From Sphaerimonospora thailandensis (GTDB lineage: Bacteria; Actinomycetota; Actinomycetes; Streptosporangiales; Streptosporangiaceae): a DNA stretch of 64,000 nt. Positions 3,347 to 24,300 of the stretch are shown here, one piece after another; the first letter of the stretch is position 1, and each line of letters opens with the position of its first letter. The stretch lies in assembly GCF_016863115.1 (NCBI RefSeq), contig NZ_BOOG01000012.1, forward strand, positions 62,001-126,000. Direction: 5' to 3'. The notes below the pieces were generated by a model. The model was not told where the DNA came from, ran no database searches, and saw nothing but the letters and a program-made list of their open reading frames with translations. Position numbers and translations under genes: made by a program.

Positions 3347-3366
3347 ATGACAGCTGTTCTCCATGG

Positions 3367-4182: not shown

Positions 4183-4331
4183 CGGAATATGTCCACCCCC
4201 AATGTCGAATACCGATCGACCTTTATTCGGTGGGTCCGCCGGCCCGCACCATCCAATGGATCGCGGACGATATCTCTCTCGTTACACGCATTCTCCTGGA
4301 GGATTTTCCGGACATCTGTGATGATAAATAC

Positions 4332-4922
4332 ATGCACGTTGAAATCGGAGCACTCGATGGCGTCCTAATGTTCATATCGACACCACATCGGGACGAACGA
4401 GGATTTTTCACACGAACCTTTGATGTTTCGGTCGCCACCGCCCATGGCCTGGATCCCGCGTCATTCATCCAGGACAGTCAGTCCCGTACGATCCGGGGTG
4501 GCATCCGTGCCCTACACGGACGAGCCGGGCGGGGGGAGGCCAAGCTCGTCCGCTGTGCCCGGGGTGCGATCCTCGACGTGCTCGTGGACGCCCGGCCCGG
4601 CTCCAGCACATATGGTGAGCAGATGTCGGTGGTGCTCGACGACGAGAACTTCACCCACCTGTACGTTCCTCCCGGCCTGCTGCACGGCTATCAGGCGCTG
4701 ACCGAGGCCGACGTCTGCTACCGCATCGACAGGGAGCACGATCCCGCCGAGGACATCTCCGTCCGGTATGACGACCCCGACCTGGCGATCCAGTGGCCTC
4801 TCCCGGTAACCGCGATCAGCCGTCGCGACCTGGCGGCGCAGTCCTGGCGGCAACTGCGTACCCGGCTGGAAACCGCCCTCGACCCGAACCCTCGCGACGT
4901 GTCGAACAACGACGTCCCGTGA
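4332..4922 (+). CDS. dTDP-4-dehydrorhamnose 3,5-epimerase family protein (RmlC-like, copy 1)
   Basis: 196 residues starting at MHVEIGALDGV. The frame is open farther upstream, but RmlC proteins normally begin a few residues before the RDERGFF motif seen here, so the ATG at 4332 was chosen. No good ribosome site precedes it. Cupin-fold landmarks are kept: RALH (catalytic His), EAKLV (Lys), PPGLLHGY (His), CYRID (Tyr) and DDPDLAIQW (Asp). It stands alone on the plus strand, away from rmlABD. The first ~30 codons use many AT-rich codons (CTA, ATA, ACA, TTT), unlike the neighbours. It may act on a sugar made by the cytidylyltransferase/C-methyltransferase operon rather than on rhamnose precursors (inference). 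Confidence 0.85.
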   Translation: MHVEIGALDGVLMFISTPHRDERGFFTRTFDVSVATAHGLDPASFIQDSQSRTIRGGIRALHGRAGRGEAKLVRCARGAILDVLVDARPGSSTYGEQMSVVLDDENFTHLYVPPGLLHGYQALTEADVCYRIDREHDPAEDISVRYDDPDLAIQWPLPVTAISRRDLAAQSWRQLRTRLETALDPNPRDVSNNDVP

Positions 4923-9024: not shown

Positions 9025-10212
9025 ATGGAGTCGTCCGCCGAGCGAGGTCGCCTGGCGGGGCTGGACGGAATCCGGGGGCTCGCGGCCCTGTTCGTCGTGC
9101 TGCATCACTGCCGGCTGACGTCGTTTCCCGGGTTTCCCGCCGACACCGGTCCGGGGTGGCTGAGCTGGCTGCTCTACGGACACTTCGCGGTCGTCCTCTT
9201 CATCGTGCTCTCGGGCTTCTCGCTCGCGGTCTCCCCCGCCCGCTCCGACTGGCGGCTCGGCGGCCTGCGCCGGTTCGCCGCCCGCCGGGCGTGGCGCATC
9301 CTCCCGCCGTACTGGGGGGCGTTGGCATTCAGCCTGGTCGTCGCGTGGACGCTGGTACCGCAGCCCGGCGAAGGCGTGCCCACCCTCAAATCGGTGGTGC
9401 TGTACGGCCTGCTGCTGCAGGACATCGCCGGATCTCCCAGCCCGAACGGCGCCTTCTGGTCCATCGCGGTTGAGGCCCAGCTCTACCTGGCCTTCCCCAT
9501 CATGATCTTCGTGCTGCGGCGGGCCGGGGCGGTGGTGCTGCTCGGCATCGTGACAGCGCTGGTCGCGATGATCGGGCTGCTGTCGCCCGAAGTGCCCGCC
9601 GTGGCCACGCTGATGCGACTGACGCCGCAGTTCGCTGCGCTGTTCGCGATCGGCATCGTCGCCGCGATGATCCTCACCCGGCCCAAGCGGGCGGCCAGGC
9701 CCTGGTCTCTCGCGGCACTCGCGGCGCTGACCGCCGTCCCTGTGGTCGTGCTGATCTGTGTCAACGGACCGGCGTGGACGGCGGCACACTTCTTCTGGAT
9801 CGATCTGGCGATCGGGCCCGCCGCCGGCCTGGCCCTGGCATCGGTGGCAACAGGCCGTCCCGTCGGCCTCGTCCGGCTGCTCGACGCGGCTCCGATCCGC
9901 GCACTGGGCCGGATCTCCTACAGTCTCTATCTGACGCATGCCCCGATCGTGGTGGTGTTGAGCACGATGGTGATCGCCCCGCGAGTCGCCCCCGGCATAC
10001 CCGCGTTCCTCACCACAGTGGCCGTAGCCGTACCGGTGAGCTTGCTCGTCGCGTGGTTGTTCTCCACAGTTTTCGAGTTTCCGTTCCTGCGTCACCGGAG
10101 CTGGTCTGCCCTCCGAACGGCGGCGAAGGGTCGGTTGTCCCGGCCGCCCGACCGGATAGACCGAGAGGTCCTGGGTGAGCCGGTCAATGTCCGGCCCCCG
10201 GCCGAGGGGTGA
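9025..10212 (+). CDS. Acyltransferase 3 family O-acyltransferase
   Basis: 395 residues. The ATG at 9025 was chosen because GGAG sits 8 nt upstream; an in-frame GTG at 9016 lies inside that site. The N-terminal signature RLAGLDGIRGLAALFVVLHH contains the conserved His pair of the OafA/YrhL family. About 10 TM helices follow, with FIVLSGF, RRAWRILPPYW, FWSIAVEAQLYLAFP and ISYSLYLTHAPIV. These proteins move acetyl or other acyl groups across the membrane onto sugars. Here it probably decorates the repeat unit or the polymer. Its 3' end overlaps the convergent GT2 gene by about 29 bp. Confidence 0.9.
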   Translation: MESSAERGRLAGLDGIRGLAALFVVLHHCRLTSFPGFPADTGPGWLSWLLYGHFAVVLFIVLSGFSLAVSPARSDWRLGGLRRFAARRAWRILPPYWGALAFSLVVAWTLVPQPGEGVPTLKSVVLYGLLLQDIAGSPSPNGAFWSIAVEAQLYLAFPIMIFVLRRAGAVVLLGIVTALVAMIGLLSPEVPAVATLMRLTPQFAALFAIGIVAAMILTRPKRAARPWSLAALAALTAVPVVVLICVNGPAWTAAHFFWIDLAIGPAAGLALASVATGRPVGLVRLLDAAPIRALGRISYSLYLTHAPIVVVLSTMVIAPRVAPGIPAFLTTVAVAVPVSLLVAWLFSTVFEFPFLRHRSWSALRTAAKGRLSRPPDRIDREVLGEPVNVRPPAEG

Positions 10213-11089
10213 GCGCACCGGAGGCCATCTGGATGAGCTTGCGGCCGCGGTGTGCGGTGGTCCGCCACTGACGGCGGGCGTACCAGCCGTACACGGCCCG
10301 CCGGGCCCGCCGACGCTGCTCGGCGGTGAGGCGCGTGGCCGACAGCCAGCGCAGCATCTCGACGCACTGAAGCACCGAGGCGAAGTGGGCCTGCCACGGC
10401 GGCACATCGAGGCGTCGGGCGATCTCCGGCATCCTCTCGTGTTTCCAGTGCCGGTGGCCGAGCACCTCGGGCACGTGCGCCCACGGGCCGGCCAGCGCCA
10501 GCTTCGCCGCGAACACCTCGTCCTCCCGAAGCATGTTCCGCCGCGCGATGGCGACGACCCGGTCGCGCCGGACCATTCCGTACAGGGGGTCGATGAGGAG
10601 ATGACTCTCGTTGAGCATCCGCAGCATCTCGGCGAACCGATCCACCGGGTCGTCCGACGTCAGGCCGGTGCCGACGTATTCGGCGCTCTCCGTCACCCCG
10701 TCCGGGCCGGTGTAGGCGGTCTGGGAGGTCACCAGCAGGAGTCGCTCGTCCCGAGCGAACACGTCGACCATGCGGGAGACGCAGTGGGGGGCCAGCCAGT
10801 CGTCGTCTCCGACCCAGCGGAAGAGGTCCCCCTCGGCGAGCCGCATGACGGTGATGAAGTTGTTGAGGATCCCGACGTTCTCCGTCTGCCTGTGGTAGAG
10901 GATCCGGCGGTCCGATCTCGCCAGTTCCCGGCACAGCTCCTCGGTGTCGTCGGTGGAGGCGTTGTCGGAGACGACGAGTCGGATGTGCTCGTGGTCCTGG
11001 GCGAGTACCGATCCGATCACGCGCTCCAGCCGATCGGCGGCGTTGCGCACCGGGAGTCCGACGGACACCAGGACGTCATTGCCCCGCAT
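10184..11089 (-). CDS. GT2 family glycosyltransferase
   Basis: 301 residues with a GT-A fold at residues 5-230: VSVGLPVRNAADRLERVIGS, VVSDNASTDDT, YHRQTENVGILNNF and the metal site WVGDDDWL, then a helical C-terminal part rich in Trp and Arg. AAGGA lies 6 nt before the start. It is the last gene of the eight-gene minus-strand operon headed by the C-methyltransferase and follows the flippase by 11 bp. It probably adds one of the sugars of the repeat, possibly the modified sugar made by the operon (inference). Confidence 0.9.
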   Translation of the reverse strand: MRGNDVLVSVGLPVRNAADRLERVIGSVLAQDHEHIRLVVSDNASTDDTEELCRELARSDRRILYHRQTENVGILNNFITVMRLAEGDLFRWVGDDDWLAPHCVSRMVDVFARDERLLLVTSQTAYTGPDGVTESAEYVGTGLTSDDPVDRFAEMLRMLNESHLLIDPLYGMVRRDRVVAIARRNMLREDEVFAAKLALAGPWAHVPEVLGHRHWKHERMPEIARRLDVPPWQAHFASVLQCVEMLRWLSATRLTAEQRRRARRAVYGWYARRQWRTTAHRGRKLIQMASGALTPRPGAGH

Positions 11090-11100
11090 GTTCGTTCCTT

Positions 11101-12597
11101 TCAGATGAGCCGGACCACGCGCGTGGTCAACTGCCTGATGCGGCTCATGGGTACGACGACGAGAATGTAGACAAGCAGGCCGGCGCTGCCGGCCACCGAC
11201 AACTCGACCACTGGGAGATCACCAGTCAGCGGCGCCGACACGGCGGCGATCATGGTGATGACCAGGGCGGCGAGTGCGGCACCGCACAGTGGCCGCACCA
11301 GTCCGGGCAGCACCGGCCGCAACCGGACGCCGGCCCGGTTCAGGGCCCATGCCGTGAGCGGAAGCGCGACGAGCACAGCGACCACGGCGTGACCGATCGC
11401 GGTGCCGCGGATGCCGTCCATGCGGGTGCCCGCCAGCAGCGCCGCCACCAGCGCCACGGCCCAGCCCAGGTTCACCCAGACCGTCCACTTGGTGGCGCCG
11501 ACCGAAGTGAGGATGTCGAAGGCGAAGGAGACGAACATCCGGACCACCATCAGCACCGCGAGAAAACGCAGGGCGTCGGCGGCCGGGGCCCATTTCGCGC
11601 CGTACAGGAAGACCACGATCTCGTGTGCGAGCGTGCACATGAGCACGGCCGCCGGCAGCACGCCCGCGACCAGCAGAGGGACGGTCCGGCGCACGCCCAG
11701 GTCCAGCGACTCCGGATCGTTTTCGGCCAGTCGGGAGAAGCCCGCGACGGAGACGTAGCGTACGGCGGTGCCGACGAGGCCCGGCACCCAGCTCGACACG
11801 TTGAACGCGAGCAGGTAATAGCCGAGGGCGACCGGGCCGAGGGCATCCCCGACGATGACGTAGTCGGCGTTCACCAGCACCGACTCGATGCCTAGGCTTC
11901 CCGCCAGGGGCAGGCCGAACCGCAGGAGCCTGGCGGCGATCTCACGGTCCACGGCGATCCGGACCGGCAACCTGGCCGCCAGGAACACCAGCACCCCGGT
12001 GACCACCGACGCCGCGACCTGCCCCGTGGCGAAGCTGTACGCTCCGGCGCCTGCGGCGGCCAGCGGTATGGCCAGGGCGGCGTTCGCCACGAAACCCACC
12101 ATGTTGGCCTTCGTCAGCTTGTCCTGCTCGAATCTGCGCAGCAGGGCCCCGCTGCGGACCGCGGTCAGCCCGTCCACCAGGATGATCACAGTCAGCAGGC
12201 GTACGACCGGGGTCGCCGCCTCGTTGCCCGCCAGACGGGCGAAGGCCGGCGCGATCACCCAGAAGATCCCGTAGACGGCTGTGCTGAACGAGACGGCCAG
12301 CACCGCCGCGGTCGGCGCCATGTCCTCCAGCTTCCCCCGCCACTGCACGGTCGCCGCGATGATGCCCGCGTCGTTGATGTGCATGACGAACTGGGAGGCG
12401 GCCAGCGCGATGGCGTAGAGGCCGAAGTCCGCGGGCGCGAGCAGCCGGGCGAGCACCAGGCCCATGGCGAGAGAGCCGATCTTGGTCACCAGGGTGCCCA
12501 GCAGGCTCCACCCCAGACCCCGGCCGGCCTTGCGGCCGATCGAGCTCAGCCCCGCCTCCTGTTCCCGTTCCCGTTCCTGCTCTGGAGAGCGGCTCAT
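11101..12597 (-). CDS. Oligosaccharide flippase (MOP/Wzx-like, copy 1)
   Basis: 498 residues with about 14 predicted TM helices after a charged N-terminus (EQEREREQE). Family features are GWSLLGTLVTKIGSLAMGLV, ARLLAPADFGLYAIALAASQ and LEFGxxxx-like positions replaced by a RRFEQDKLTKANMV segment. Proteins of this type flip undecaprenyl-linked repeat units to the outer face. The start overlaps the stop of the tandem-domain Cys protein by 4 bp (ATGA), so the two are translationally coupled. A second, distinct flippase is encoded at 31568-32851. Confidence 0.9.
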   Translation of the reverse strand: MSRSPEQEREREQEAGLSSIGRKAGRGLGWSLLGTLVTKIGSLAMGLVLARLLAPADFGLYAIALAASQFVMHINDAGIIAATVQWRGKLEDMAPTAAVLAVSFSTAVYGIFWVIAPAFARLAGNEAATPVVRLLTVIILVDGLTAVRSGALLRRFEQDKLTKANMVGFVANAALAIPLAAAGAGAYSFATGQVAASVVTGVLVFLAARLPVRIAVDREIAARLLRFGLPLAGSLGIESVLVNADYVIVGDALGPVALGYYLLAFNVSSWVPGLVGTAVRYVSVAGFSRLAENDPESLDLGVRRTVPLLVAGVLPAAVLMCTLAHEIVVFLYGAKWAPAADALRFLAVLMVVRMFVSFAFDILTSVGATKWTVWVNLGWAVALVAALLAGTRMDGIRGTAIGHAVVAVLVALPLTAWALNRAGVRLRPVLPGLVRPLCGAALAALVITMIAAVSAPLTGDLPVVELSVAGSAGLLVYILVVVPMSRIRQLTTRVVRLI

Positions 12598-13616
12598 GCC
12601 GGCCGTGTCTCCTCGACGCGCTCAAGCCAGATCTCCCGCCAGAACGGCACGAAGCCACGGGGGCAGTTGGCGTTGTAGACGCCCCCGCAGACGACGTCGT
12701 CGAGGATGACGCAGGGCGTCTTCATCCGCAGCATCCGCCCGGTCTTCTCGTCGATGCACTGGTCGACCCTGGCGAGCACCCGGGCCGTCCGGCCGCAGTG
12801 ACGGCTCATCTCCTCCTCGAACCCCATCCCGCGGTTGAGCAGGTCCTCGTTGAGAGTTTTGAGGATCTCCTCCTTGGGCTTGACCCGGACGAGCTCGCCC
12901 GGCCGCAGCCCGAGATGCGCGACCGGGGTGTGAGCTCCCGCCCCGCCCTTGACCCAACCCCAGCGCAACCCGCCCCGGATCCACAGCCACCGCGGAAGCA
13001 GCCGCCTGCTGATGTTCTGGTAGCGGTTGAAAACTTGGACCAGAAAGGTTCGCAGCACCGCGAGGGAACCGGCGTTGCCGCTGCGCACGTCCGTGACGTA
13101 CTGCCCCAGGTTCTTCAGCGGCAGACAGACAGGGGCGGCGCGCAGGAGTTCGGTGGCCTGGCAGGAGAAGCGCTCCTCTCCGTCCGGGCCGGGTTCCTTC
13201 CTGCTGTTGACCTCCAGCAGGGGCAGGAGCGGCCGGGACGGCCGGGGGGTGACGGCATCCCCAGCTTCTGGGGTCCCGGCGTCCACTCGTTTGAGCCAGG
13301 CCTCCTTCCAGTACAGCGAGCAGGCGGTCTGGCAGCCGCCATGGGCCGACCCGTCGCACCGCGCCCCGGTCAGGTGGACGGCGCCGTCCATGCGCCGCAT
13401 GCCGCTGCCGCTGATCGTGTCGCACAGCTTGTGCGCCACCTTGTGCACAGTCATACGCTGACCGCAGTACCTCAGCATCTCCGGCATGAAGGGCAGAGCA
13501 TCCAGCTCCCCCCTCTCGTCGAGGGTGGCGAGGATCTCCTCCTCACTGCGAACCTCCACCAGTTCGCCGACCCTCAGGTTGAGGCTCAGCGATGCGGGGG
13601 TGGCGAATTGCGTCAT
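12594..13616 (-). CDS. Uncharacterised tandem-domain Cys/His-rich protein
   Basis: 340 residues made of two related domains of about 95 residues: residues ~12-111 and ~233-333. Shared pattern: GELVxVxxxEEILxTLxE, then MxRxCGxxxxV, then a Cys-Asp or Asp-Gln-Cys, then RMxxxVxL, then a Cys-Gly segment (RCDGSAHGGC in domain 1, VVCGGVYNANC in domain 2) and YWKEAWLKRV / FWREIWLERV. The conserved Cys and His residues suggest metal binding (inference). The linker (~112-230) contains KNLGQYVTDVRSGN. No signal peptide or TM is visible, so it is probably cytoplasmic. It lies between the DUF4910 gene and the flippase, overlapping the latter by 4 bp and abutting the former. I know similar proteins only as hypothetical. 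Confidence 0.8.
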   Translation of the reverse strand: MTQFATPASLSLNLRVGELVEVRSEEEILATLDERGELDALPFMPEMLRYCGQRMTVHKVAHKLCDTISGSGMRRMDGAVHLTGARCDGSAHGGCQTACSLYWKEAWLKRVDAGTPEAGDAVTPRPSRPLLPLLEVNSRKEPGPDGEERFSCQATELLRAAPVCLPLKNLGQYVTDVRSGNAGSLAVLRTFLVQVFNRYQNISRRLLPRWLWIRGGLRWGWVKGGAGAHTPVAHLGLRPGELVRVKPKEEILKTLNEDLLNRGMGFEEEMSRHCGRTARVLARVDQCIDEKTGRMLRMKTPCVILDDVVCGGVYNANCPRGFVPFWREIWLERVEETRPA

Positions 13617-14888
13617 CTATCGCTCCTTGAGCAGTCCAGCGTCCGCGAGGGCATGTGCCGCGTCCGCCACGAGATCGAACGGGAGCCCGGATCGTTCCGC
13701 TATGTCCAGCACACTGTGGTCACCGTCGGAGAGGTTCAGCACCCAGAGCATCGCCATCTGGTCGTCCCTGGTGTCGCTGCGGCCTCCCAGCGATCCGTAC
13801 AGTCCGCGTCTGCCGAGCTGGGGCTCTCCGTAGGGGCTGAGATTGAGGTAGCGGCGGTCGCGTTCCAGCACGCCCAGCACCTCCCAGCAGGTCTCCAGCG
13901 TGTCCGCCATCGCCTCGGGCGAGACGAACCCGGGGTCGTCGGCCGAGGTGTGATATTCGGGGTAGGCGCCGTACGGCGTCCGGGTGAGCGAGCCGACGCC
14001 CAGATCGAACCCGGGCGAGCAGAACTGGCGCTCGTCGTAGCCGTACGGCGAGAAGCCGATGATCGTGTGGGGCCGTCCGGAGGAGCGGAGCACCTGCTCC
14101 ACCGCACGGTCGATCTCGGCGTTCCCCCGCCTGCTGCGCTTGTAGGTCAGCGGCCCGCCGTCCCCGGCACAGGCGAGCACGAGCCCGGCCCTGATGCGCC
14201 CGGCCCGCTCCCGGTTGCGCGCGAGCCAGGTGATCGCCCCGATGGTGCCGGGTGCGAACAGGAACCGGTAGGTGTACCGGGGGTTCGCCCGCGCGATCCT
14301 TCTGGCGAGCTCCACCGCCACCGCGACACCGGCCAGGTTGTCGTTGGCCAGCGACGGATGACACACGTGGCACGAGACCAGCACCTCGTCGGCGGACTCC
14401 CCCGGCACCACATGCTCGCCGTACGTCAGGTGACCGTCGGCGAGCGTCGAGTCGATGCGCACCTCGTACGGCCCGGGGCCCAGCGCCGACAACGTCTCGT
14501 GCCTGAGGCAGAACCCCCAGGTCTCCGCGTAGTAGCTGGTCCGGTACGGGATCAGGTCCGGCTGCCCGGGCAGCGTGTGCAGGTGCGGTCGCAGCTCGTC
14601 GAGGGTCATCGTGGCCGACACCGGCACGCTGTAGCCGACCACGTGCAGGTTCGACTCGGCGAAGTCGATCACTTTGGCGCCCGTGGGATCCCTCACGAAG
14701 GCGTCGCGGATGTTCCACTCCTTCGGCACCGTCCAGTCGAGCACCTGGGTCCCGGTCGGCACCTCGTGCACGTCCAGCGGGATCGACTCCTGGATGATCT
14801 CCAGCGTGCGCCGCACCCCGTCCCCGGTGATGCTCCGGCACAGCGGGTAGAGCCGTGTCACCAGGTCGTGCATCTCGCGCCCTGTCAC
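13617..14888 (-). CDS. DUF4910 aminopeptidase-like protein
   Basis: 423 residues from a GTG that overlaps the epimerase stop (GTGA). The N-terminus MHDLVTRLYPLCRSITGDG and the M28-like core with candidate zinc ligands (SCHVCHPSLANDN, His/Asp; PEYHTSADD, His/Asp) match the DUF4910 family. The last ~75 residues form the usual winged-helix tail (VLWVLNLSDGDHSVLDIAE). DUF4910 proteins have a bacterial aminopeptidase fold but no settled substrate. The position in a sugar-biosynthesis operon suggests an amide- or ester-cleaving step on a sugar nucleotide or glycolipid rather than peptide digestion (inference). The next gene, for the Cys protein, starts directly after its stop. Confidence 0.85.
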   Translation of the reverse strand: MTGREMHDLVTRLYPLCRSITGDGVRRTLEIIQESIPLDVHEVPTGTQVLDWTVPKEWNIRDAFVRDPTGAKVIDFAESNLHVVGYSVPVSATMTLDELRPHLHTLPGQPDLIPYRTSYYAETWGFCLRHETLSALGPGPYEVRIDSTLADGHLTYGEHVVPGESADEVLVSCHVCHPSLANDNLAGVAVAVELARRIARANPRYTYRFLFAPGTIGAITWLARNRERAGRIRAGLVLACAGDGGPLTYKRSRRGNAEIDRAVEQVLRSSGRPHTIIGFSPYGYDERQFCSPGFDLGVGSLTRTPYGAYPEYHTSADDPGFVSPEAMADTLETCWEVLGVLERDRRYLNLSPYGEPQLGRRGLYGSLGGRSDTRDDQMAMLWVLNLSDGDHSVLDIAERSGLPFDLVADAAHALADAGLLKER

Positions 14889-15904
14889 GGGCGCAGGCTC
14901 TCGTCGAGGGTCCCCGCCGCACGCCGGTCGGACAGCCGGGCCAGCCGGGTGAACCGGGTGTCGAAATCCTTCGGGGTGAGGCTGAGCCGCCGGTAGGCGG
15001 CCGCCAGTTCGGCCGCCCCCGCCGGGACCGTCCAGGCGCAGTCGAAACCGGGCAGCGCCGTACGGATCCGGGAGAAGTCCACCCGGTAGGACCTCGGGTC
15101 CGCCCCGGTCTCTCCGGTGATCAGCAACTCGGCGCCCGGGACCGCCCTGACCACCTCCTCGGCGATCTCCCTCACGGTCACGTTGTTCCGCTCGGTCCCC
15201 ACGTTGAACGCCCCGAGGTGTACGGCCTCACGCGGGGCGACCAGCGCCAGCCGGAACGCGGCCGCGATGTCCTCGGCGTGTACGAGAGGCCGCCAGGGTG
15301 TGCCGTCGGACAGCACCTTCACCACGCCGCTGAGCACCGCGTGGCCGACCAGGTTGTTCAGCACGATGTCCGCGCGCAGCCGGGGCGAGAATCCGAACGC
15401 GGTGGCGTTGCGCAGGAACACCGGGCTGAAGTCCGCGTCGGCCAACTCGACCAGGTCCTCCTCGACCTGGACCTTCGAGACGGCGTACGGGGTGACCGGA
15501 CGCAGCGGCGCGTCCTCCGTCACGAGGTCGTCACCGCCGGAGGCGCCGTAGACCGAGCAGGTGGACGCGTACAGGAACCTGCGCACTCCGGCGTCCCGGG
15601 CCAGCCTGGCCAGCCGTACCGAGGCGTGATGGTTGATGTCGTAGGTCAGCTCGGGAGCCAGCGAGCCCAACGGATCGTTGGACAGCGCCGCGAGGTGGAT
15701 CACCGCGTCGAAGCCGGCCAGGTGCTCGGGGCGTACGTCCCGCAGGTCCACCGCGTACGCCTTGGGGTCGGCGGGGGCGGAGCCGAGCACGCAGTCGGCG
15801 AAGAGCCCGGAGTCGAGCCCGACCACGTCGTGGCCGGCCTCGGCCAGCGCCGGAGCCATCACCGTGCCCAGGTAGCCCTGGTGACCGGTCAGTAGAACAC
15901 GCAA
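14885..15904 (-). CDS. NAD-dependent sugar epimerase/dehydratase (extended SDR)
   Basis: 339 residues. The start appears to be TTG at 15904, with GGGAGAG 9 nt upstream; no ATG or GTG fits better. It has the Rossmann glycine motif TGHQGYLG (residues 6-13), DLRDV, AVIHLAALSNDP, STCSVYGA and the catalytic TPYAVSKVQVEEDL (YxxxK), then the substrate-side PLVHAEDIA. It acts on a nucleotide sugar as an epimerase, dehydratase or reductase. With the cytidylyltransferase and the C-methyltransferase, it probably completes a modified sugar. It ends in a GTGA overlap with the DUF4910 gene. Confidence 0.9.
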   Translation of the reverse strand: MRVLLTGHQGYLGTVMAPALAEAGHDVVGLDSGLFADCVLGSAPADPKAYAVDLRDVRPEHLAGFDAVIHLAALSNDPLGSLAPELTYDINHHASVRLARLARDAGVRRFLYASTCSVYGASGGDDLVTEDAPLRPVTPYAVSKVQVEEDLVELADADFSPVFLRNATAFGFSPRLRADIVLNNLVGHAVLSGVVKVLSDGTPWRPLVHAEDIAAAFRLALVAPREAVHLGAFNVGTERNNVTVREIAEEVVRAVPGAELLITGETGADPRSYRVDFSRIRTALPGFDCAWTVPAGAAELAAAYRRLSLTPKDFDTRFTRLARLSDRRAAGTLDESLRP

Positions 15905-15916
15905 CGAAATCTCTCC

Positions 15917-16582
15917 CTAGAAGCCGGCCCTGGGACCGGCCGTGAAATCGATGGTGAGCTTGGCCGCGTGGAACGCCTCGGCGTAGCGGCTCTGACACTG
16001 CACTCCGCGCACCCTGGCGAGCCCGCGGAACGTCTCCTCGTCGAACCAGCTCCGCGCGTGCTGAGAGGGGTAGTGCGCGTGCAGCAGGTCGATCTTCTCC
16101 CGCAGAGTCTCCCGGGCCAGCGGCACGAAGACGGCGGGCTGGGCCAGGTCGGACTCCCACTTGAGGATCTCGTAGCCCAGCGTCAGGTGATCGCGGAACA
16201 CTGTGGGTGCCAGCCGGGCCAGTCCTCGGTGGTCCTGGTGCGCGTCATGCGGCGCGGGGGCGAACACCACGTCGGGATCGCACCGCCGCCGCAGGTCCTC
16301 CAGCGCCTGCTTGGCCTGCTCCCAGTGTGCGGGGAGCCGGCCGTCCGGCAGGTCGAGCACGGTCAGATCGAGCTCCGCCTTGGGGCAGAAAGCGGGCAGC
16401 GCCACCCGCTCCTCCGCCTCCCTCGCGGTGCCGCCGCCCGACAACACGAGCGCGGTGATCCGCAGCCCGGGACGGGCCCGGCAGAGCTCGAGCAGCGTCC
16501 CGCCCGCCCCGATCGGCAGGTCGTCGCAGTGCGCGGCGAGGAGCACGATCTCCTCGCAGCGATCCGGCGCCAGCCGCGACAT
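15917..16582 (-). CDS. PIG-L family deacetylase
   Basis: 221 residues. The ATG at 16582 shares one base with the upstream TGA (TGATG), so this start was preferred to the longer open frame from 16606. The PIG-L metal-site motifs are present: LLAAHCDDLPIGAGG (AHxDD-type) near the N-terminus and PHDAHQDHRG at ~115. Members remove N-acetyl groups from GlcNAc derivatives or related substrates. In this operon it may deacetylate an amino sugar, freeing an amine for another modification (inference). Coupled to the RfbF-like gene upstream. Confidence 0.88.
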   Translation of the reverse strand: MSRLAPDRCEEIVLLAAHCDDLPIGAGGTLLELCRARPGLRITALVLSGGGTAREAEERVALPAFCPKAELDLTVLDLPDGRLPAHWEQAKQALEDLRRRCDPDVVFAPAPHDAHQDHRGLARLAPTVFRDHLTLGYEILKWESDLAQPAVFVPLARETLREKIDLLHAHYPSQHARSWFDEETFRGLARVRGVQCQSRYAEAFHAAKLTIDFTAGPRAGF

Positions 16583-17361
16583 CACGACGCCTCCCACAAC
16601 GCCCATGGCCGATCACCGCGGGCCCACGCCCGATCCAGCTCCAGCCGCTGGTTGACGGTGTCGGTCGGCCGCCAGTAGCCGCGATAGGGGTAGGCCAGCA
16701 GCCTGCCGTGCTTGGCCAACTCGGCGCAGCCGTCCGCGACCAGGTCGCCGCCCTCGGGGATGTGCTCGAAGATCTCCTGGCGGAGCACGAAGAAGCCGCC
16801 GTTGACCCACAGCGGCATCCGACTTACCGGGGTGATCCCGCCGACCAGCCCGCCTTCGCCCAGGTCCACGCAGTGGAAGGTGTTGTTGGGCGGAACGGCC
16901 AGCATCGACGCGCCCGCGTCCGTGACGGCGAAGCGGTCGATCACGTCGGTCAGCGGTACGTCGCAGAGGACGTCGGCGTAGTTGGCCAGGAACATCTCCG
17001 CACCGTCGAGGTGCGGCCGCACCCGGCGCAGCCGCTCTCCTATCGGGGTGTCGAGCCCGGTGTCCACGAAGGTGATCGACCAGTCGGAGATGTCGGTGGA
17101 CAGCGGCTCGACCCGGCCGCCGTTCAGCACGAAGTCGTTGGAGTCGGTCTCCTGGTAGTTGAGGAAGAACTCCTTGATCGAGTTGGCTCCGTACCCCAGG
17201 CACAGCAGGAAGTCCTTGTGCCCGAAGTGCGCGTAGTAGCGCATGACGTGCCAGAGCAGCGGCCGGGGCCCGACGAGTTGCATCGGCTTCGGTAAGTCGC
17301 CGCCGGGCAGTTCGCTGCGCATCCGCGTGCCGCGCCCGCCGCAGAACAGCACGACCTTCAC
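16582..17361 (-). CDS. Glucose-1-phosphate cytidylyltransferase-like nucleotidyltransferase (RfbF-like)
   Basis: 259 residues from a GTG at 17361, which overlaps the C-methyltransferase stop (GTGA) and has GGAGG just upstream. The longer open frame lies inside that neighbour. Motifs: KVVLFCGGRGTRMRS at the N-terminus (nucleotide binding), LPKPMQLVG, LWHVMRYYAHFGHKDF, LCLGYGANSIKEFFLNY and ANYADVLCD. The LLWHVMRYYAHFGHKDF and FFLNY segments are those of glucose-1-phosphate cytidylyltransferases rather than RmlA, so a CDP-sugar is the likely product (from family resemblance). It supplies the activated sugar for the methyltransferase and epimerase in this operon. Confidence 0.85.
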   Translation of the reverse strand: MKVVLFCGGRGTRMRSELPGGDLPKPMQLVGPRPLLWHVMRYYAHFGHKDFLLCLGYGANSIKEFFLNYQETDSNDFVLNGGRVEPLSTDISDWSITFVDTGLDTPIGERLRRVRPHLDGAEMFLANYADVLCDVPLTDVIDRFAVTDAGASMLAVPPNNTFHCVDLGEGGLVGGITPVSRMPLWVNGGFFVLRQEIFEHIPEGGDLVADGCAELAKHGRLLAYPYRGYWRPTDTVNQRLELDRAWARGDRPWALWEAS

Positions 17362-18560
17362 ACGACCTCCAGGCGGGGGATGGGAAAGACCAGCCGGCCA
17401 CCCCAGTCGTGGACGTAGGAGAGCTGCTCGGTCAGCTCCTCGCGCAGGTTCCACGGGAGCACCAGGACGTAGTCGGGCCGGTCGGCGGCGAGACGCTCCG
17501 GCGGCAGGATCGGGATCCGCGTCCCCGGGGTGAACCTGCCGTGCTTGTAGGGGTTTCGGTCCACCGTGTACGGGAGCAGGTCGGACCGGATTCCGCAGTG
17601 GTTGAGCAGTGTGTTCCCCTTGCCCGGCGCGCCGTACCCGGCGACGGTCCGGCCCACGTCGGCGGCTTCGATGAGGAATCTCAGCAGGTCCCGCCGGACC
17701 CGGGCGACGCGGGCGGCGAAGTCGGCGTACCCGGACAGCTCGTGCAGGCCGGCCGCCTTCTCCCGGGCCAGCATCTCCTGGACACGCTCGCCGGGCTCGC
17801 CATGGGGGCGGGCCCACAGCCGGATCGAACCGCCGTGCGTGGGCAGCGGCTCCACGTCCACCAGCGTCAGGCCGCCGCTCGCGAGCGCCCGCTGCGCCGA
17901 GGCGACCGTGTAGTACTGGAAGTGCTCGTGGTAGATCGTGTCGTACTGGTTGAGCTCGATCAGCGAGAGCAGGTGCTGCACCTCGACGGAGACCATGCCG
18001 TCGTCGGCGACCAGCGCCCGCAGACCCCTGGTGAAGCCGACCACATCGGGGATGTGGGCGTAGACGTTGTTGGCCACGACCAGGTCGGCGGGCCCGTGCT
18101 CGGCGCGGACCCTCCGCCCGATCTCGGGGGTGAGGAACTCGGTGAGCGTGGGCACGCCCCGGTCTCTGGCCGCCTGCCCGACATTCGCCGACGGCTCGAT
18201 GCCCAGGCAGCGCACCCCGCGTTCGACGACATGCTGCAGGAGGTAGCCGTCGTTGCTGGCCACCTCAACCACGAACGCGCCCGGTCGCGGATCCCGTTCG
18301 GCGACGAACCTCCGTGCGTGCTCCACCCAGGAGGTCGAGTACGAGGAGAAGTACGCGTACTCGGTGAAGGTGTCCTCCGGAGTGATCAGTCGCGGGAGCT
18401 GCGCCAGCCAACAGTCGGTGCAGACCCGTAGGTGCAGCGGGTAGGTGGGCTCCGGCTCGTCGAGCCGGTCGGCCGTCAGGAAGCGTTCGCATGGGGGCGT
18501 GGCGCCGAGGTCGACGACCCCCGTCAGATTCGCCGAGCCGCACAGCCGGCAGATTGTCAT
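17358..18560 (-). CDS. NDP-sugar C-methyltransferase (TylCIII-like, class I SAM-dependent)
   Basis: 400 residues with the three-part layout of sugar C-methyltransferases. The N-terminal zinc module has CRLCGSANL (C4, C7) and CTDCWLAQL (~47-50). The SAM-binding core has VVEVASNDGYLLQHV and LGIEPSANVG, and YHEHFQYYT at ~210 holds candidate catalytic residues. The C-terminal Methyltransf_14-type domain has VAGYGAPGKGNTLLN. Known homologues put a methyl branch on C-3 of 4-keto sugars. It heads the eight-gene operon, preceded by GGGAGAAC. A branched (C-methyl) sugar in the polymer is therefore likely. Confidence 0.9.
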   Translation of the reverse strand: MTICRLCGSANLTGVVDLGATPPCERFLTADRLDEPEPTYPLHLRVCTDCWLAQLPRLITPEDTFTEYAYFSSYSTSWVEHARRFVAERDPRPGAFVVEVASNDGYLLQHVVERGVRCLGIEPSANVGQAARDRGVPTLTEFLTPEIGRRVRAEHGPADLVVANNVYAHIPDVVGFTRGLRALVADDGMVSVEVQHLLSLIELNQYDTIYHEHFQYYTVASAQRALASGGLTLVDVEPLPTHGGSIRLWARPHGEPGERVQEMLAREKAAGLHELSGYADFAARVARVRRDLLRFLIEAADVGRTVAGYGAPGKGNTLLNHCGIRSDLLPYTVDRNPYKHGRFTPGTRIPILPPERLAADRPDYVLVLPWNLREELTEQLSYVHDWGGRLVFPIPRLEVV

Positions 18561-18677: not shown

Positions 18678-20147
18678 TCAGTAGGCCCCGTCTCCGCGAG
18701 TGACCGCCGACCACGTCTTCCACAGCAGTTGCAGGTCCAACATGAGCGACCAGTTCTCCACGTAACGCAGGTCCAGCCGGACCGACTCCTCCCACGACAG
18801 GTCCGATCTTCCGCTCACCTGCCACAGCCCGGTCATCCCGGGCTTGACCACCAGACGACGGCGGACGTCCGTGCCGTACCGCTCCACCTCCGCCGGCAGC
18901 GGCGGGCGCGGGCCGACCAGCGACATCTCGCCACGCAGCACGTTGATGAGTTGAGGGAGTTCGTCGAGGGAGTAGCGGCGCAGCACCCGGCCCGCCCGAG
19001 TGATCCTTGGATCGTTCCTAATTTTGAACAACACCCCGTCGGACTCGTTGTCATCGAGAAGGTCCCGTTTGATCCGCTCGGCGTCGGCGACCATCGTGCG
19101 GAACTTCAACACCTGGAACTCACGACCGTGCCGGCCGACCCGGGTCTGCCGGAACAGAGCCGGGCCCGGACTGGTCGCCCGGATGACGAAAGCGATGGCG
19201 AGCATCGGCACGGCGGTGACCAGCAGGGCGACGGCTGCCACGATCTTGTCGAATCCGCTCTTCACGAGTTGGCGGATCCCGTCGATGTCGGGGTGCTCGA
19301 CGTGCAGGAGCGGCATGCCGGCCACGACACGGACGCTGATCCGCGGTCCGGCGACATCCATGAGCGCCGAGGCCACGAACAGGTCGGTGCCCCCGGGCTC
19401 GATCCCCCAGGCCAGCCGCCGCAGGGCAGCACCGTCCAGCTCCGGGCAGGCGAGCACGGCGACGGCGTCGGCCTCGGCCTTGAGGACTACGGCGGGCACG
19501 TCACCGAAGTCCCCCAGCACCGGCACCCCGCCGACCTCACGCCGCCGCATCTGGTAGTCGTCCCGCGGCAGGCACGCCGCGACCACCCGCATGCCGTGGT
19601 ACGGCTGCCGCCGCAACTGAGCGATCAGATCGAGGACGGACGCGCGGTGTCCCACCGCCACGACCCGGCGCAGGTGCTCGGTGCGGGCACGTGCCCGGTG
19701 CAGGCGCTTGCGCAGGCAGTAGCGGAACACAAGGGTGATCAAGGTGGCCAGCGGCATCATGGCCATCACGTGGCTTCTCGCCACCGTGGCCTGGGTCGCG
19801 TAGGCTCCGATCGCGGTCGCGGCGATCAGCCCCATGCCTCCCTGCATGACGGCGCGGAACTCCTCGGTTCCCTCGCCATGGATCTTCCTGCGGTACGCCC
19901 CCACCAGCCCCATGACCGACGGCCACAGAATGGTGAGGGACAGCCCGAGCAGGAAGTCCTCGACCGGGATGAACATCCCCAGCCCGACCCGGGTCAGCAC
20001 GACGGCGGCGAACGCGCCGATCGCGCAGGCGAGGTCGCCCAGGATCAGCAGCCAGGTTCGACGCGCCGCCGGCACGCGTTTCGCCTGCCGCACACCGGCG
20101 GGTTCGACGACGGCCGGAGGGTCGGGCAATCCCAGTCGCGTTTCCAT
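18678..20147 (-). CDS. Polyprenyl-phosphate sugar phosphotransferase (priming transferase, copy 1)
   Basis: 489 residues: N-terminal TM helices (~30-150), a CoA-binding-like middle region, one more TM (~285-305), then the bacterial sugar transferase domain. Catalytic-domain motifs: QTRVGRHGREF, LKFRTMVADAE, DELPQLINVLRGEMS, VGPRPPLP and KPGMTGLWQVSGRSDLS. It loads the first sugar-1-phosphate onto undecaprenyl phosphate. It starts at ATG 20147 with GAGGGG upstream. It is closely similar to the product at 39260-40711, including the C-terminal tail and a terminal -GAY. It lies just upstream of the C-methyl sugar operon and is probably the primer for set 1. Confidence 0.93.
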   Translation of the reverse strand: METRLGLPDPPAVVEPAGVRQAKRVPAARRTWLLILGDLACAIGAFAAVVLTRVGLGMFIPVEDFLLGLSLTILWPSVMGLVGAYRRKIHGEGTEEFRAVMQGGMGLIAATAIGAYATQATVARSHVMAMMPLATLITLVFRYCLRKRLHRARARTEHLRRVVAVGHRASVLDLIAQLRRQPYHGMRVVAACLPRDDYQMRRREVGGVPVLGDFGDVPAVVLKAEADAVAVLACPELDGAALRRLAWGIEPGGTDLFVASALMDVAGPRISVRVVAGMPLLHVEHPDIDGIRQLVKSGFDKIVAAVALLVTAVPMLAIAFVIRATSPGPALFRQTRVGRHGREFQVLKFRTMVADAERIKRDLLDDNESDGVLFKIRNDPRITRAGRVLRRYSLDELPQLINVLRGEMSLVGPRPPLPAEVERYGTDVRRRLVVKPGMTGLWQVSGRSDLSWEESVRLDLRYVENWSLMLDLQLLWKTWSAVTRGDGAY

Positions 20148-20586: not shown

Positions 20587-21183
20587 CTACGACGAGCGGA
20601 GCTTCTCGTAGTATTCCCGGCATCGGTGGTAGTCGGGGAGTATGCCGCGGGAGCGCGCCTCCGACAGCGTGGGCGCGACGGCGTCCTTCGGCGACAGGAC
20701 CGGCTCCAGACCGTCCGGCCACGCGATCCCCAACTCGGGGTCGAGCGGATGCACCCCGTGTTCTCGCCCCGGAGCGTACGGCTCGGAGCACAGGTAGACG
20801 ATCGTGGCCTGCTCACTGGTCGCCATGAAGCCGTGTCCGAGGCCCTCCGCGAGATAGATCCCGCGACGGGTCACGTCGTCCAGCGCAACCATCTCCCACC
20901 TGCCGAACGTCGGTGACCCGACGCGCAGGTCCACGATCACGTCGAGGACCGAGCCGGCCACGCACGTGACGTATTTCGCCTGCCCTACCGGCACTTCCGC
21001 GAAATGGACGCCCCTGAGGACTCCCCTGCCGGAGACCGAGCAGTTCGCCTGGGCGAGGCCGAACCGGTGCCCCACCACCTCGGTGAACTCACCCGCGCGG
21101 AACCACTCGAAGAACAGACCACGGTCGTCACCGTGGATGGCGGGAGTGAAGACGTAGGCATCACTGATCGACAACGGTTTCAT
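20587..21183 (-). CDS. rmlC: dTDP-4-dehydrorhamnose 3,5-epimerase (RmlC, copy 2)
   Basis: 198 residues, the normal RmlC length. It keeps RGLFFEWFR, QANCSVSGRGVLRGVH (catalytic His), GQAKYV (Lys), AEGLGHGF (His), IVYLCS (Tyr) and LDPELGIAWP (Asp). It epimerises C-3 and C-5 of dTDP-4-keto-6-deoxyglucose, the third step to dTDP-L-rhamnose. It is the better candidate for the rhamnose pathway with rmlA, rmlB and rmlD at 36388-39259, though it is 15 kb away on the same strand. It is transcribed alone, downstream of the LamG protein and its terminator. Confidence 0.93.
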   Translation of the reverse strand: MKPLSISDAYVFTPAIHGDDRGLFFEWFRAGEFTEVVGHRFGLAQANCSVSGRGVLRGVHFAEVPVGQAKYVTCVAGSVLDVIVDLRVGSPTFGRWEMVALDDVTRRGIYLAEGLGHGFMATSEQATIVYLCSEPYAPGREHGVHPLDPELGIAWPDGLEPVLSPKDAVAPTLSEARSRGILPDYHRCREYYEKLRSS

Positions 21184-21305: not shown

Positions 21306-24300
21306 CTAGGAGACCGTAACCGTCTGGGTGGTGACGTTGGTCAGGTCGTCGGTCCCGGTCACGGTCAGCGTGATCCGATACGTCCCCGCCTGCGCGAAGG
21401 TGTGCGAGGCGGTCTGACCGGACTCGACGACTCCATCACCGTAACTCCAGGTGTAGGAGGCGATCGGCGTGGTTCCCGGGGTCGATCCCGAGGCGTCCAC
21501 CGCGCAGGTCAAGCCGGTGCAGGCGACCGAGAACGCCGCGGTCGGGGCGCTGGCCATGCTGTTCGAGGACAGGTCGTCCACGGTGGCGACGACCGGCGCG
21601 TTGGCGGCGCTGCCGGACAGGAACACGCCGAACCCGACGCTGCCCGGCGCCTGCAGCCCGGCCGTCGAGTCGGTCGTGGTGACCTGCCAGTCGACCGGCT
21701 CCGCACTCGTGGCGGGCCAGACCTTCGCCTGGACCGTCGTGGGCGAGGTCCCGAGCACCTGCAGCCGGACCTTCAGCACGGTTCCCGGGCTGTAGGTCAG
21801 ACCCGGGACGCCCTGCTCGGGCGCCAGCAGCACCTCGCTGTTGGACGTGTCGACACGACTCAACGCGAGACCGACCACGTTCGAGGAGAGCAGCCGGACC
21901 CGGGCCCGGTAGTCACCCTGACCGCTGACGCTCCGGCCGATGCCCCAGAGGTAGATGCCGTTGCCCGTGGCCGCCTTGTCGGTGGTGACCGAGAACGTGG
22001 TGTCCGAGGTCGTGCTGGACACACTGTTCAGGTACGCCCGCCGGTTCGCGCCGGCCGAGGGCATCGTGATCTTCGCCGCGTCGCCGTCCACCGCGAACCA
22101 GGCGGCGGCGCCGGAAAGCGTGTACTCGCCACCGGTGTCGGCCGAGCCGAGCCCGCTGGAGGCCGTACGGCCGAAGGCGTCCGAGGCCAACGTCGGCGAC
22201 GGGTTCGCCGGCGGCTGCGGCGTGACCACATCGGCGTGCGTCCCCGTGGCGCTCGCGTCGTCGGTGACCGTCAGCGTGACCGGGTAGTCGCCCGCGGCCG
22301 GGTAGGTGTGGGTGGCCGTCTGGCCGGCGCCCGTGGTGCCGTCGCCGAAGTCCCAGGCGTACCCGGTGATCGAGCCGTCGGGGTCGCCGGACGCCCCGGC
22401 ATCGAACGAGCAGTCCAGATCCGTGCAGGTGGCACTGAACGACGCCGTGGGGGCCTGGTTGGCGGGGCCGTTGCCCGAGCCCTTCTGCCAGTGCTCGGCG
22501 ATCTGGGAGTCGGTCAGCACACTCCCGTAAACGGCCACCTCGTCGATCTCACCGTTGAAGTTGTCGCCGGTCGGCCGATCCGGCCAGGAGTTGATGTTGT
22601 CCCCGCCCACTCGCCAGTAGCCGGTGTAGTTCTGCGCGCCCGTCTGGGGGTCACTGCCCACCAGAGCACCGTCGACGTACAGCTTCATGCCGCCGGAGCC
22701 CTGAGTGGCCACCACGTGATGCCACTGATCGTCGTTGTAGCCGTTCGGCGAGGTGATCACGTTGATCGCGCCGGTATACGTGCCGAACACCAGCTTGCCG
22801 CTGTTCGTCATGTAGATGTGGCGGTCATAGTTGGAACTGGTGCCGGAGGCGGCGTTGCCGAAGCCGAGGAGCTTGCCGCCGCTGGTCGTGCTCGTCTTGA
22901 ACCACAGCTCTCCCGAGTAGGTCGTCGGGTTGACGTACGACGCCTTGGAGGCGATGCCGCCGTTGTTGAGTGCGACCGCTCTGTCCGTGCTGTCGGTGAT
23001 GGCACCGGGCCGGCCGTAGGTGACGCCGGTCGCGGTGTAGGCGCCGTCGACACCGCCCTTGCCCGCATCCGCGGCGACTGTGCCGTTCTGCTCTCCCAGT
23101 CGCCAGTAGAACGTCGGCTCGGCGTTGTAGACGGCCTTGCCGTACGCGTCCGCGGGGGCGGGTGGGATCGGGCTGGTACGGCCGCTGGCGACGTAGTGGT
23201 CGAGCAGCTTCTCGTGCGACAGGGCCGCCGGGTAGATCGCCACGTCGTCGATGTCGCCGTTGAGGTAGGAGCTGGACGGCTGGTTCGGCCATCCGCTCAG
23301 GTTGTCTCCGCCGATCCGCCAGTAGCCGGTGTACGCCTGGGCCGTGGTGGTGCCGGAGTTCTGGGCGACCCTGCGGCCGTCGACGTAGAGCGCCATGCCG
23401 GCCGTGTCGCTGAGCGTGGCCGCGACATGGTGCCACTGGCCGTCGTTGAAGCCGGCAGCGGAGTTGACCGTGCGGACGGCGCCGGGATAGACGCCGAACC
23501 AGATGCGGCCCGCGTTGTCCATGTACACGTGCCGGTCGTAGCTGCCGCTGTTACCGGTTGCCGCGCTGCCGTAGCCGACGATCTTTCCGCCTCTGGTCGA
23601 GGTGGTCTTCACCCACGCCTCGGCGGTGAAGCTCGGGGTCGCCGGGACCTGGGTGCCGGTCACGCCGAAGCCGTTCGTGGTGCCGTCGTAGTGGGACGCG
23701 GTGTCGGTGTCCCCGTTGATCGCCCCGGCGGCGCCGTAGGTCACGCCGCTCTTCTGAGCGACATCGATGAAGCCCGAGTGGTCGTACGCCGTGGGTCCGC
23801 TGCCCTCCCCGAGCCGCCAGAAGCTCGTGGGGGAGTCGGCCAGGACGGCGTCGGAGTAGGCGCTCGACGATCCGGTGGTGGCGATGGTGACCGGCGCCGA
23901 CGTTCCGCTGCCGACCGAGTTCCCCTGGGGATCCTTCACCCGGACTCGGTAGGTGTGCGTGGTGCCGGGCGTGAGCCCGGTGTCCTTGAAGCCGAGCGAC
24001 GGCAGCGTCCAGAAGTTGGACTTGGCCGTCACGGTTCCGATCGGCGTGCCGGACCCGTCACGCAGCACTTCGTAGGTCAGCGTCTCGCTGTCCTGGTCCC
24101 ACGTCGCCGGCCAGTTGACCCGTGCGGCGCCTTCCTGGAAGGAGACCGCGCTCGGGGTCAGGCTGGAGGTGGGGATGGGTCCGGCCTTCTTCGGCGCGAC
24201 CGACTTGACCGCGAATCGAGTCAGCCCCTGCTGCGGGTTGCCGTTGACGTAGGTGAACTCACCGCCCATCGACAGATACTGGGAGTTCCCCGTGAGCGAC

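Follow-up and report, generated by a model that had tools for sequence, protein, structure and literature searches.

What does a polysaccharide locus build with a sugar C-methyltransferase that is encoded in one run with a nucleotidyltransferase, a zinc deacetylase and a protein of a family without assigned function? The question is raised by six open reading frames (ORFs) that follow one another on the minus strand, in the same direction, at 12594-18560 of a 64,000-nucleotide stretch of the Sphaerimonospora thailandensis genome (hereafter the window; contig C12, positions 62001-126000). In the order of reading, they encode a TylC3/TcaB9-type sugar C-methyltransferase (MT, 17358-18560, 400 aa), an RfbF-like nucleotidyltransferase (NT, 16582-17361, 259 aa), a PIG-L (LmbE) zinc deacetylase (15917-16606, 229 aa), an NAD-dependent sugar-nucleotide dehydrogenase-like member of the short-chain dehydrogenases/reductases (SDR, 14885-15904, 339 aa), a DUF4910/DUF2172/HTH_47 protein with a metallopeptidase fold (13617-14888, 423 aa; hereafter DUF4910) and a Cys-rich protein (12594-13616). 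Our answer, to which we give a probability of roughly 0.55, is that the first four genes, here called the core, form with accessory parts (an RmlC-like epimerase, an aminotransferase, DUF4910 and the Cys-rich protein) a conserved pathway whose product is a nucleotide sugar with a C-methyl branch, destined for a surface polysaccharide. Codes beginning with f, L and G denote families, loci and genomes.

A core of four genes and its recurrence

The operon had been proposed in a first-pass annotation made from the letters alone, and all six ORFs were found where it placed them. Its description of the genes as nearly all joined by overlaps was slightly generous. Most junctions do overlap: the end of MT (17358) and the GTG start of NT (17361) share 4 bases, as do the end of SDR (14885) and the GTG start of DUF4910 (14888), and the end of NT (16582) overlaps the start of PIG-L (16606), for which an alternative ATG, seen by eye, overlaps the NT stop. 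However, a 12-base gap separates the end of PIG-L (15917) from the TTG start of SDR (15904), and DUF4910 (end 13617) simply abuts the Cys-rich ORF (start 13616). Searches of Pfam, NCBIfam and PDB agreed with the family names given earlier, except that NT stayed below the cut-off of TIGR02623 (175.8 bits against 300.25) and reached that of no Pfam family (PF12804, 20.1 bits against 27).

In a class sample of 296 genomes, NT matches were bimodal: 35 genomes stood at 57% identity or more, the NT of the other 34 being 57-81% identical to that of the window, and the next best match was at 45%. The 35 cassettes belong to families f1, f4, f18, f19, f26, f28, f29, f40 and f45. PIG-L is the neighbour of NT in all 35, though in L084 a single gene intervenes, and the same stretch of about 20 kb holds SDR in 34, MT in 33 and DUF4910 in 15, all of the latter in f1 or f18. 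MT directly precedes NT in 30 of the 35 loci. Two layouts dominate, MT-NT-PIG-L-SDR and SDR-MT-NT-PIG-L, from which L075, L076, L084 and L090 depart. The order of the genes is repeated across many genomes, which makes the set more than a chance grouping.

The same core was met outside the class sample. Named genomes gave at least 461 PIG-L profile candidates. The best 80 loci, in which proportions should not be read as frequencies in the population, come among others from Streptosporangium, Nonomuraea, Planobispora, Actinomadura, Streptomyces, Kitasatospora, Amycolatopsis, Pseudonocardia, Kutzneria and Rhodococcus; the closest named relative by core proteins is Sphaerimonospora mesophila (91% identity over 1211 columns). 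Within about 10 kb, and with some loci cut by contig ends, these 80 hold SDR in 78, NT in 75, MT in 74, DUF4910 in 61, an RmlC-like gene in 52, the aminotransferase in 42 and the Cys-rich ORF in 23. Protein searches of plasmids moreover revealed NT relatives in alphaproteobacteria. The 14 plasmid loci comprise ten from alphaproteobacteria (L204, L205, L207-L214, with S. fredii NGR234 pNGR234b as L210), L215, whose record is labelled Roseateles and marked unverified, and three from actinobacteria (Gordonia L202, Streptomyces L203 and Tsukamurella L206). All 14 carry MT, NT, PIG-L and SDR, the NT of the non-actinobacterial loci being 42-50% identical to that of the window. The ten alphaproteobacterial loci hold DUF4910 in every case, an RmlC-like gene in nine (not L214) and the aminotransferase in six (L204, L205, L208-L211), while L215 has all three; the content of L209, L210, L211 and L214, which are unannotated, is read from tblastn alone. 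Several of these loci are near relatives (two Mesorhizobium, two Sinorhizobium), so they are not independent events. The Gordonia and Tsukamurella plasmids combine the core with an RmlC-like gene, the aminotransferase and a second methyltransferase (MT2). On the Streptomyces sp. KN37 plasmid (L203), a SapB/AmfS-type lanthipeptide cluster is a near neighbour of the polysaccharide cluster that contains the cassette.

The core thus recurs as a unit, nearly complete throughout the 35 class genomes and complete in the 14 plasmid loci. The first-pass annotation had named PIG-L and DUF4910 genes not conserved with the others as a refutation, and here the outcome was divided: PIG-L is conserved with the others throughout the 35 class loci, but DUF4910 in only 15 of these, though in all ten alphaproteobacterial loci. 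DUF4910 was accordingly rejected as part of the obligatory set.

Proposed sugar activation, ketone formation and methyl branching

MT exceeds the cut-offs of PF08421, PF13489 and PF08484, that is, a zinc-binding N-terminal domain, a SAM domain and a C-methyltransferase C-terminal domain. Its best PDB match is 4rv9, D-mycarose 3-C-methyltransferase (E 5e-83), with which it shares DTIYHEH; the Tyr-His-Glu-His segment, presumably catalytic, is kept in 117 of 118 MT sequences (patterns were sought anywhere in the matched stretch, here and in the other motif counts across cassette sequences). This agrees with the earlier suggestion of a gene set for a methyl-branched sugar in a polysaccharide locus. 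It also brings in a first alternative, in which RmlA and RmlB of the locus make dTDP-4-keto-6-deoxyglucose, MT branches it in the way known from mycarose, and NT has a minor part. The nearest solved relatives of MT presumably act on dTDP keto sugars, and the window holds RmlA/B/D-like genes at 36388-39163 (identified by eye), outside the cassette, which probably form a dTDP-rhamnose set with an RmlC gene at 20587-21183 on the minus strand. Nevertheless, the usual position of MT directly before NT makes NT hardly a side player, SDR is part of the core and has no dehydratase motif (see below), and neither RmlA nor RmlB is annotated in the displayed stretch of four plasmid loci, whose gene tables are incomplete. 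We therefore hold the dTDP route to be unlikely.

The best PDB match of NT is 1tzf, a glucose-1-phosphate cytidylyltransferase (E 7e-44), to which it aligns over its full length. When 108 cassette NTs were aligned with 1tzf and 24 other RfbF-like rows, the residues that we take to bind metal and nucleotide proved to be kept in the cassette NTs (Asp131, Asp236 and Arg111 in 100%, Lys25 in 99%, Arg15 in 98%). The 24 other rows, by comparison, retain Glu178-Lys179-Pro180 at 92, 88 and 92%, whereas the cassette NTs have other residues there, mostly Ala/Pro, Val and Ser (Pro-Val-Ser in the window). None of 120 distinct cassette NT sequences has Glu-Lys-Pro at the sugar-phosphate site; two EKP strings among them lie near the C terminus and were set aside. 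The alphaproteobacterial NTs with the site displayed likewise lack it, as does L100, a row from f17 counted among the other RfbF-like ones. In addition, a Gly is replaced by His (His163 in the window) in 100% of the subfamily. The loss of Glu-Lys-Pro makes it probable that the sugar of NT is not plain glucose 1-phosphate, and the simplest reading would be a different, conserved sugar pocket. The first-pass annotation had applied to NT the rule that RfbF makes CDP-glucose; with the nucleotide and metal residues kept and the sugar-phosphate residues lost, that assignment has become doubtful. Use of CTP is still likely because of the kinship with RfbF.

A further possibility is that sugar phosphates are no substrates of NT, which would either join CMP to a free sugar hydroxyl in the manner of CMP-Kdo synthetase or serve as a non-catalytic partner. 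The Lys of Glu-Lys-Pro, which we take to be a ligand of the sugar phosphate, is lost in all 120 sequences, and the metal residues remain. Yet another conserved residue, for example His163, may substitute for it, and the alignment with 1tzf has no large part missing; we consider this the least probable of the alternatives weighed here.

For the ketone, the first-pass annotation had seen no CDP-glucose 4,6-dehydratase and had suggested that SDR might supply the keto group, and both points are supported. SDR matches PF01370, and its best PDB match is 6vo6 (E 1e-30, the next match being at 1e-19), which we take to be Cj1427, a C4-dehydrogenase. The YAVSK of SDR aligns with YGIDK of 6vo6, so that YxxxK is kept, and both share an SPRxRxD stretch that is present in 115 of 122 SDRs. 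The 4,6-dehydratase-type motif [ST]xDE[VI]Y occurs in 0 of the 122. The dehydratase itself (TIGR02622) was found in 23 of the 296 genomes at E <= 1e-50, in 20 of them over the cut-off, and an RfbF relative lies within 10 kb of it in 18 of the 23. It was found in none of the 35 cassette genomes at the same threshold, at most six candidates being scored per genome, so the cassette seems to do without this enzyme; the idea that RfbG is merely encoded elsewhere in these genomes is unsupported by the same result. Cj1427 has been described as a C4-dehydrogenase whose NADH is recycled by 2-oxoglutarate and whose product feeds a C3/C5-epimerase (PMC10680097, as excerpted).

A comparable epimerase gene is present in the window, although the first-pass annotation overlooked it. 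It lies at 4332-4922 on the plus strand (probable start; the ORF opens at 4230), set apart from the cassette, and matches PF00908 with 160.8 bits. R[GA][LM]H is found in 82 of 83 RmlC-like sequences and the pattern [DN]DP[DA], sought for the Asp region, in only 23 of them. The protein is 52-77% identical to the RmlCs of f1, f18, f26 and five of the seven f4 cassette loci, 41-43% to those of the f4 loci L075 and L076, and 33.5% to the other RmlC of the window. The latter (20587-21183, PF00908), which is 65-69% identical to RmlCs near MT in five other f1 loci, was not counted in the cassette. Where 9j9q has ELYHPEYD, whose Tyr is presumably catalytic, this protein of the window reads REHDPAED; the catalytic Tyr may therefore be missing, and the enzyme may epimerise one carbon only. 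It is plausible that SDR and this epimerase would together be the source of a 4-keto, non-6-deoxy nucleotide sugar.

A probable deacylation and two proposed alternative tailoring steps

PIG-L matches PF02585 and has AHxDD and HQDH intact. The zinc motifs AHxDD and HxDH are invariant in a nine-row alignment, and each is found in 124 of 125 sequences. On the best reading PIG-L is a core step of the pathway, and this position, together with a class III aminotransferase linked to the cassette in 15 of 35 genomes, makes the acyl-amino intermediate proposed earlier possible. The aminotransferase (PF00202) was also missed by the first-pass annotation, as it is encoded 5.7 kb ahead of the window, at C12:55050-56348; it is 56% identical to a Streptomyces one. 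At E <= 1e-90 it was found in 14 of the 34 other cassette genomes, always on the contig of the cassette, and in none of 12 f1 genomes without a cassette. As it is missing in the 20 remaining cassette genomes at that threshold, it was rejected as an obligatory part. In locus L112, where it was noted at 11029-12255 (C12:55029-56255), its neighbours, seen by eye, are NADH-dehydrogenase-type and 2-oxoacid:ferredoxin oxidoreductase-type genes, and it occupies a similar place in G259 (L116).

DUF4910 matches PF16254, PF09940 and PF16221, and aligns with 3k9t (E 1e-152), including the zinc ligands His, Asp and His in CHPSLANDN and EYHT; H.CHPS.ANDN is present in 82 and EYHT in 83 of 85 matched stretches. 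Within the cassette it has a set place, directly after SDR in all 15 f1 and f18 loci and in nine of the ten alphaproteobacterial ones. In other loci its counterpart may be MT2, a protein of the same family as MT, in which RHGH takes the place of YHEH in 19 of 21 sequences, so that MT2 may methylate differently (the MT2s of L081 and L088 are different paralogues without RHGH). We collected 115 loci, 112 of them distinct by NT (or PIG-L) sequence, and tabulated the 99 in which MT, NT and SDR were all present, with flanks of no less than 4 kb on the upstream and 5 kb on the downstream side; eight with an incomplete core, some of them cut by contig ends, and five with short flanks were left out. 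DUF4910 is present in 70 of the 99, MT2 in 18 (L088 among them), neither in 11 and both in none (Fisher p 1.4e-12, uncorrected for descent), and the two were not found together in any of the 115. Among the 14 plasmid loci, counted after overlap filtering, MT2 is found only in those of Gordonia and Tsukamurella, both without DUF4910. On a tree of the four core proteins (FastTree only, 102 rows, duplicates kept), DUF4910 requires 4 changes and MT2 7, against shuffled means of 25.6 and 16.8. The DUF4910 clade encloses the MT2 row L194 (Nonomuraea), deep within it, and also L165, which has neither gene; at the edge of the clade the MT2 row L129 (Amycolatopsis) forms a pair with a DUF4910 row. The swap therefore probably happened more than once.

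These data bear on whether DUF4910 and the Cys-rich protein are passengers of the operon whose substrates lie outside the pathway. In favour of this, 20 of the 35 class-sample cassettes have no DUF4910, the protein also occurs elsewhere without the altered NT, and the Cys-rich ORF is found in fewer than a third of the best named loci. Against it stand the set place of DUF4910 after SDR and the fact that 18 of the 29 complete-core loci without it have MT2, and we think it improbable that the two proteins are bystanders, somewhat more so than we do for the dTDP route. In all, 45 sampled genomes encode DUF4910: 15 in cassettes, one (G093) outside the cassette of a cassette genome, 24 in f17, four in f34 and one in f25. 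In f17, which we guess from gene content to be Frankia, 20 of the 24 loci (L051-L070) were read, and in 19 of these the neighbour of DUF4910 is an RfbF relative with 31-35% identity. In several f17 loci an IspD-like cytidylyltransferase (by eye) adjoins DUF4910, and no CDP-glucose 4,6-dehydratase was found in the genomes of these 20 loci among the at most six candidates scored in each. In nine f17 genomes chosen for having PIG-L, 14-40 kb separate it from DUF4910, and relatives of MT, RmlC and SDR are present in nine, nine and eight of them.

As for the Cys-rich protein, it consists of two related domain copies of about 100 aa, recognised in an alignment of 18 sequences, and is mainly of a Streptosporangiaceae type, with 45% identical relatives beside the same module in two Mesorhizobium loci (L212 and L213, at about 2306-3409). 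It has no Pfam or NCBIfam match, and its AlphaFold model (pLDDT 78.5) found nothing in the PDB by Foldseek at E <= 0.001, the best hit being a Mind bomb repeat domain (8.4e-3), followed by nitrile hydratase beta chains. We therefore claim no function for it.

The deacetylase and the exclusive pair could also point to an amino sugar. NT would activate an N-acetylhexosamine phosphate, PIG-L would free the amine, and DUF4910 or MT2 would cap it, by acyl transfer or methylation respectively. The invariant PIG-L with its intact zinc motifs, the mutual exclusion and the linked aminotransferase are in line with this. On the other hand, the aminotransferase is not universal, and nucleotidyltransferases for N-acetylhexosamine phosphates usually keep, we believe, the Glu and Lys that NT has lost. 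A transacylation to an amino sugar has been suggested for DUF4910 (Das et al. 2014, PMC4000134, in the available part of the text). We regard the amino sugar as a possible, still tentative, product, and the one to be taken most seriously of the alternatives.

The polysaccharide locus, known systems and the proposed pathway

The cassette looks like part of a Wzx/Wzy-type polysaccharide locus. A Wzx-type flippase gene (11101-12597, minus strand, PF13440) overlaps the Cys-rich ORF by 4 bases; it directly follows the Cys-rich gene in four of five other f1 loci and comes one gene later in the fifth (L031). Next downstream, at 10184-11089 on the minus strand, is a GT2-like glycosyltransferase gene (family by eye; gene cluster c12) that recurs in f1 and f18 loci. 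Two sugar-transferase-like genes of one homology cluster (c28), at 18678-20147 and 39260-40711, may mean two repeat-unit starters, and a 1399-aa protein with repeated concanavalin-like and PKD-like stretches, seen by eye, is encoded at 21306-25505 within the locus. Just outside the window, L112:17289-17852 (C12:61289-61852) encodes a phytanoyl-CoA-dioxygenase-like protein (PF05721) whose relatives adjoin DUF4910 in f17 and MT in G259; the called ORF is shorter than these relatives, and the protein is possibly a further tailoring enzyme.

The association of DUF4910 with sugar genes has been known since 2014 (PMC4000134). In its available part, that study linked DUF4910 to genes for a sugar epimerase, a nucleotidyltransferase, a glycosyltransferase, an N-acetyltransferase and a sugar methylase in several phyla including actinobacteria, and suggested transacylation or deacylation by a degenerate peptidase site. 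CA_C2195 (PDB 3k9t) has the same DUF4910-DUF2172-HTH_47 architecture and zinc ligands as the window protein. The C. acetobutylicum cluster tabled in PMC4000134 is, however, sialic-acid-like (spsE, spsF), and the same part of that paper names no PIG-L, four-gene core, altered RfbF subfamily, alternative MT2 or missing 4,6-dehydratase. With RfbF/RfbG, which convert CDP-glucose to CDP-4-keto-6-deoxyglucose, the cassette shares the full-length similarity and the metal residues of NT; it differs in the lost Glu-Lys-Pro, in the score below the TIGR02623 cut-off and in RfbG, which was not found in the 35 cassette genomes. MT can be aligned over its whole length with TylC3 and TcaB9 of mycarose and tetronitrose synthesis, pathways that presumably start from dTDP-4-keto-6-deoxyglucose, whereas its partners here are an RfbF-like NT and a different SDR. 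CDP-vinelose of Azotobacter, which we take to be a CDP-linked 3-C-methyl sugar, would be a precedent for the type of product, although vinelose is presumably a 6-deoxy sugar, unlike the one proposed; we found no paper on vinelose in the open PMC literature, which does include one on virenose of Coxiella (PMC3539893). Nor did we find one there on the gene set, including searches for PIG-L with a cytidylyltransferase and a C-methyltransferase and for PIG-L with a glucose-1-phosphate cytidylyltransferase. The Campylobacter heptose pathway resembles the cassette in its pairing of a C4-dehydrogenase with an RmlC-like epimerase. It differs in that, as excerpted from PMC10680097, it uses GDP-heptose and has a C4 reductase, whereas the cassette adds a C-methyltransferase, PIG-L and DUF4910, and a separate reductase was not identified.

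Taken as sugar-nucleotide tailoring in a polysaccharide locus, the cassette has an unusually clear and testable conservation pattern. For its reactions we infer the following order. NT would activate a sugar, probably not glucose 1-phosphate and likely with CTP, and PIG-L would remove an acyl group from this sugar or its nucleotide. SDR, by analogy with Cj1427, would oxidise one hydroxyl, most likely at C4, with the 6-hydroxyl kept, after which the RmlC-like enzyme may invert C3 or C5 beside the ketone. MT would then methylate the neighbouring carbon, probably C3, and the class III aminotransferase would add nitrogen in some genomes. The last step would be one of the two alternative tailoring reactions, by DUF4910 or MT2, in the window by DUF4910. 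The polysaccharide bearing the branched sugar is probably exported by the Wzx/Wzy route.

Several considerations weigh against this pathway. The rhamnose genes of the locus itself could supply MT with a dTDP keto sugar as its substrate. The dehydratase search scored only a few candidates in each genome, and arguments from best matches do not fix the nucleotide of NT or the carbon oxidised by SDR. The analysis identified no enzyme that would reduce the ketone at the end of the pathway. Shared descent makes the mutual exclusion look stronger than it is, as the few changes of DUF4910 on the tree indicate, and most f17 RfbF relatives beside DUF4910 keep Glu-Lys-Pro, so that DUF4910 is not tied to the altered NT. 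An RmlC-like gene is present in 70 of the 99 complete-core loci and missing from the stretches L080, L082, L083, L085-L089, L130 and L134, hence the epimerase step is not universal, and more than half of the other cassette genomes gave no aminotransferase at the threshold used.

On balance we retain the C-methyl-branched nucleotide sugar as our reading of the cassette. In a more specific and more tentative form, which we find conceivable without leaning towards it, the product would be a non-6-deoxy C-methyl-branched (amino) sugar made across phyla by an RfbF paralogue with a changed substrate, a Cj1427-like dehydrogenase replacing the 4,6-dehydratase and an obligatory PIG-L, with DUF4910 as a zinc enzyme of a new kind, tailoring the branched sugar as an alternative to MT2. 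The findings give DUF4910, a family whose structure is solved but which has no assigned function, defined partners and a testable substrate, and they count PIG-L among the conserved core genes of a pathway for sugar nucleotides. If the reading is true, chemistry that we did not find described in the open PMC literature would give filamentous actinobacteria and rhizobia a shared surface sugar.

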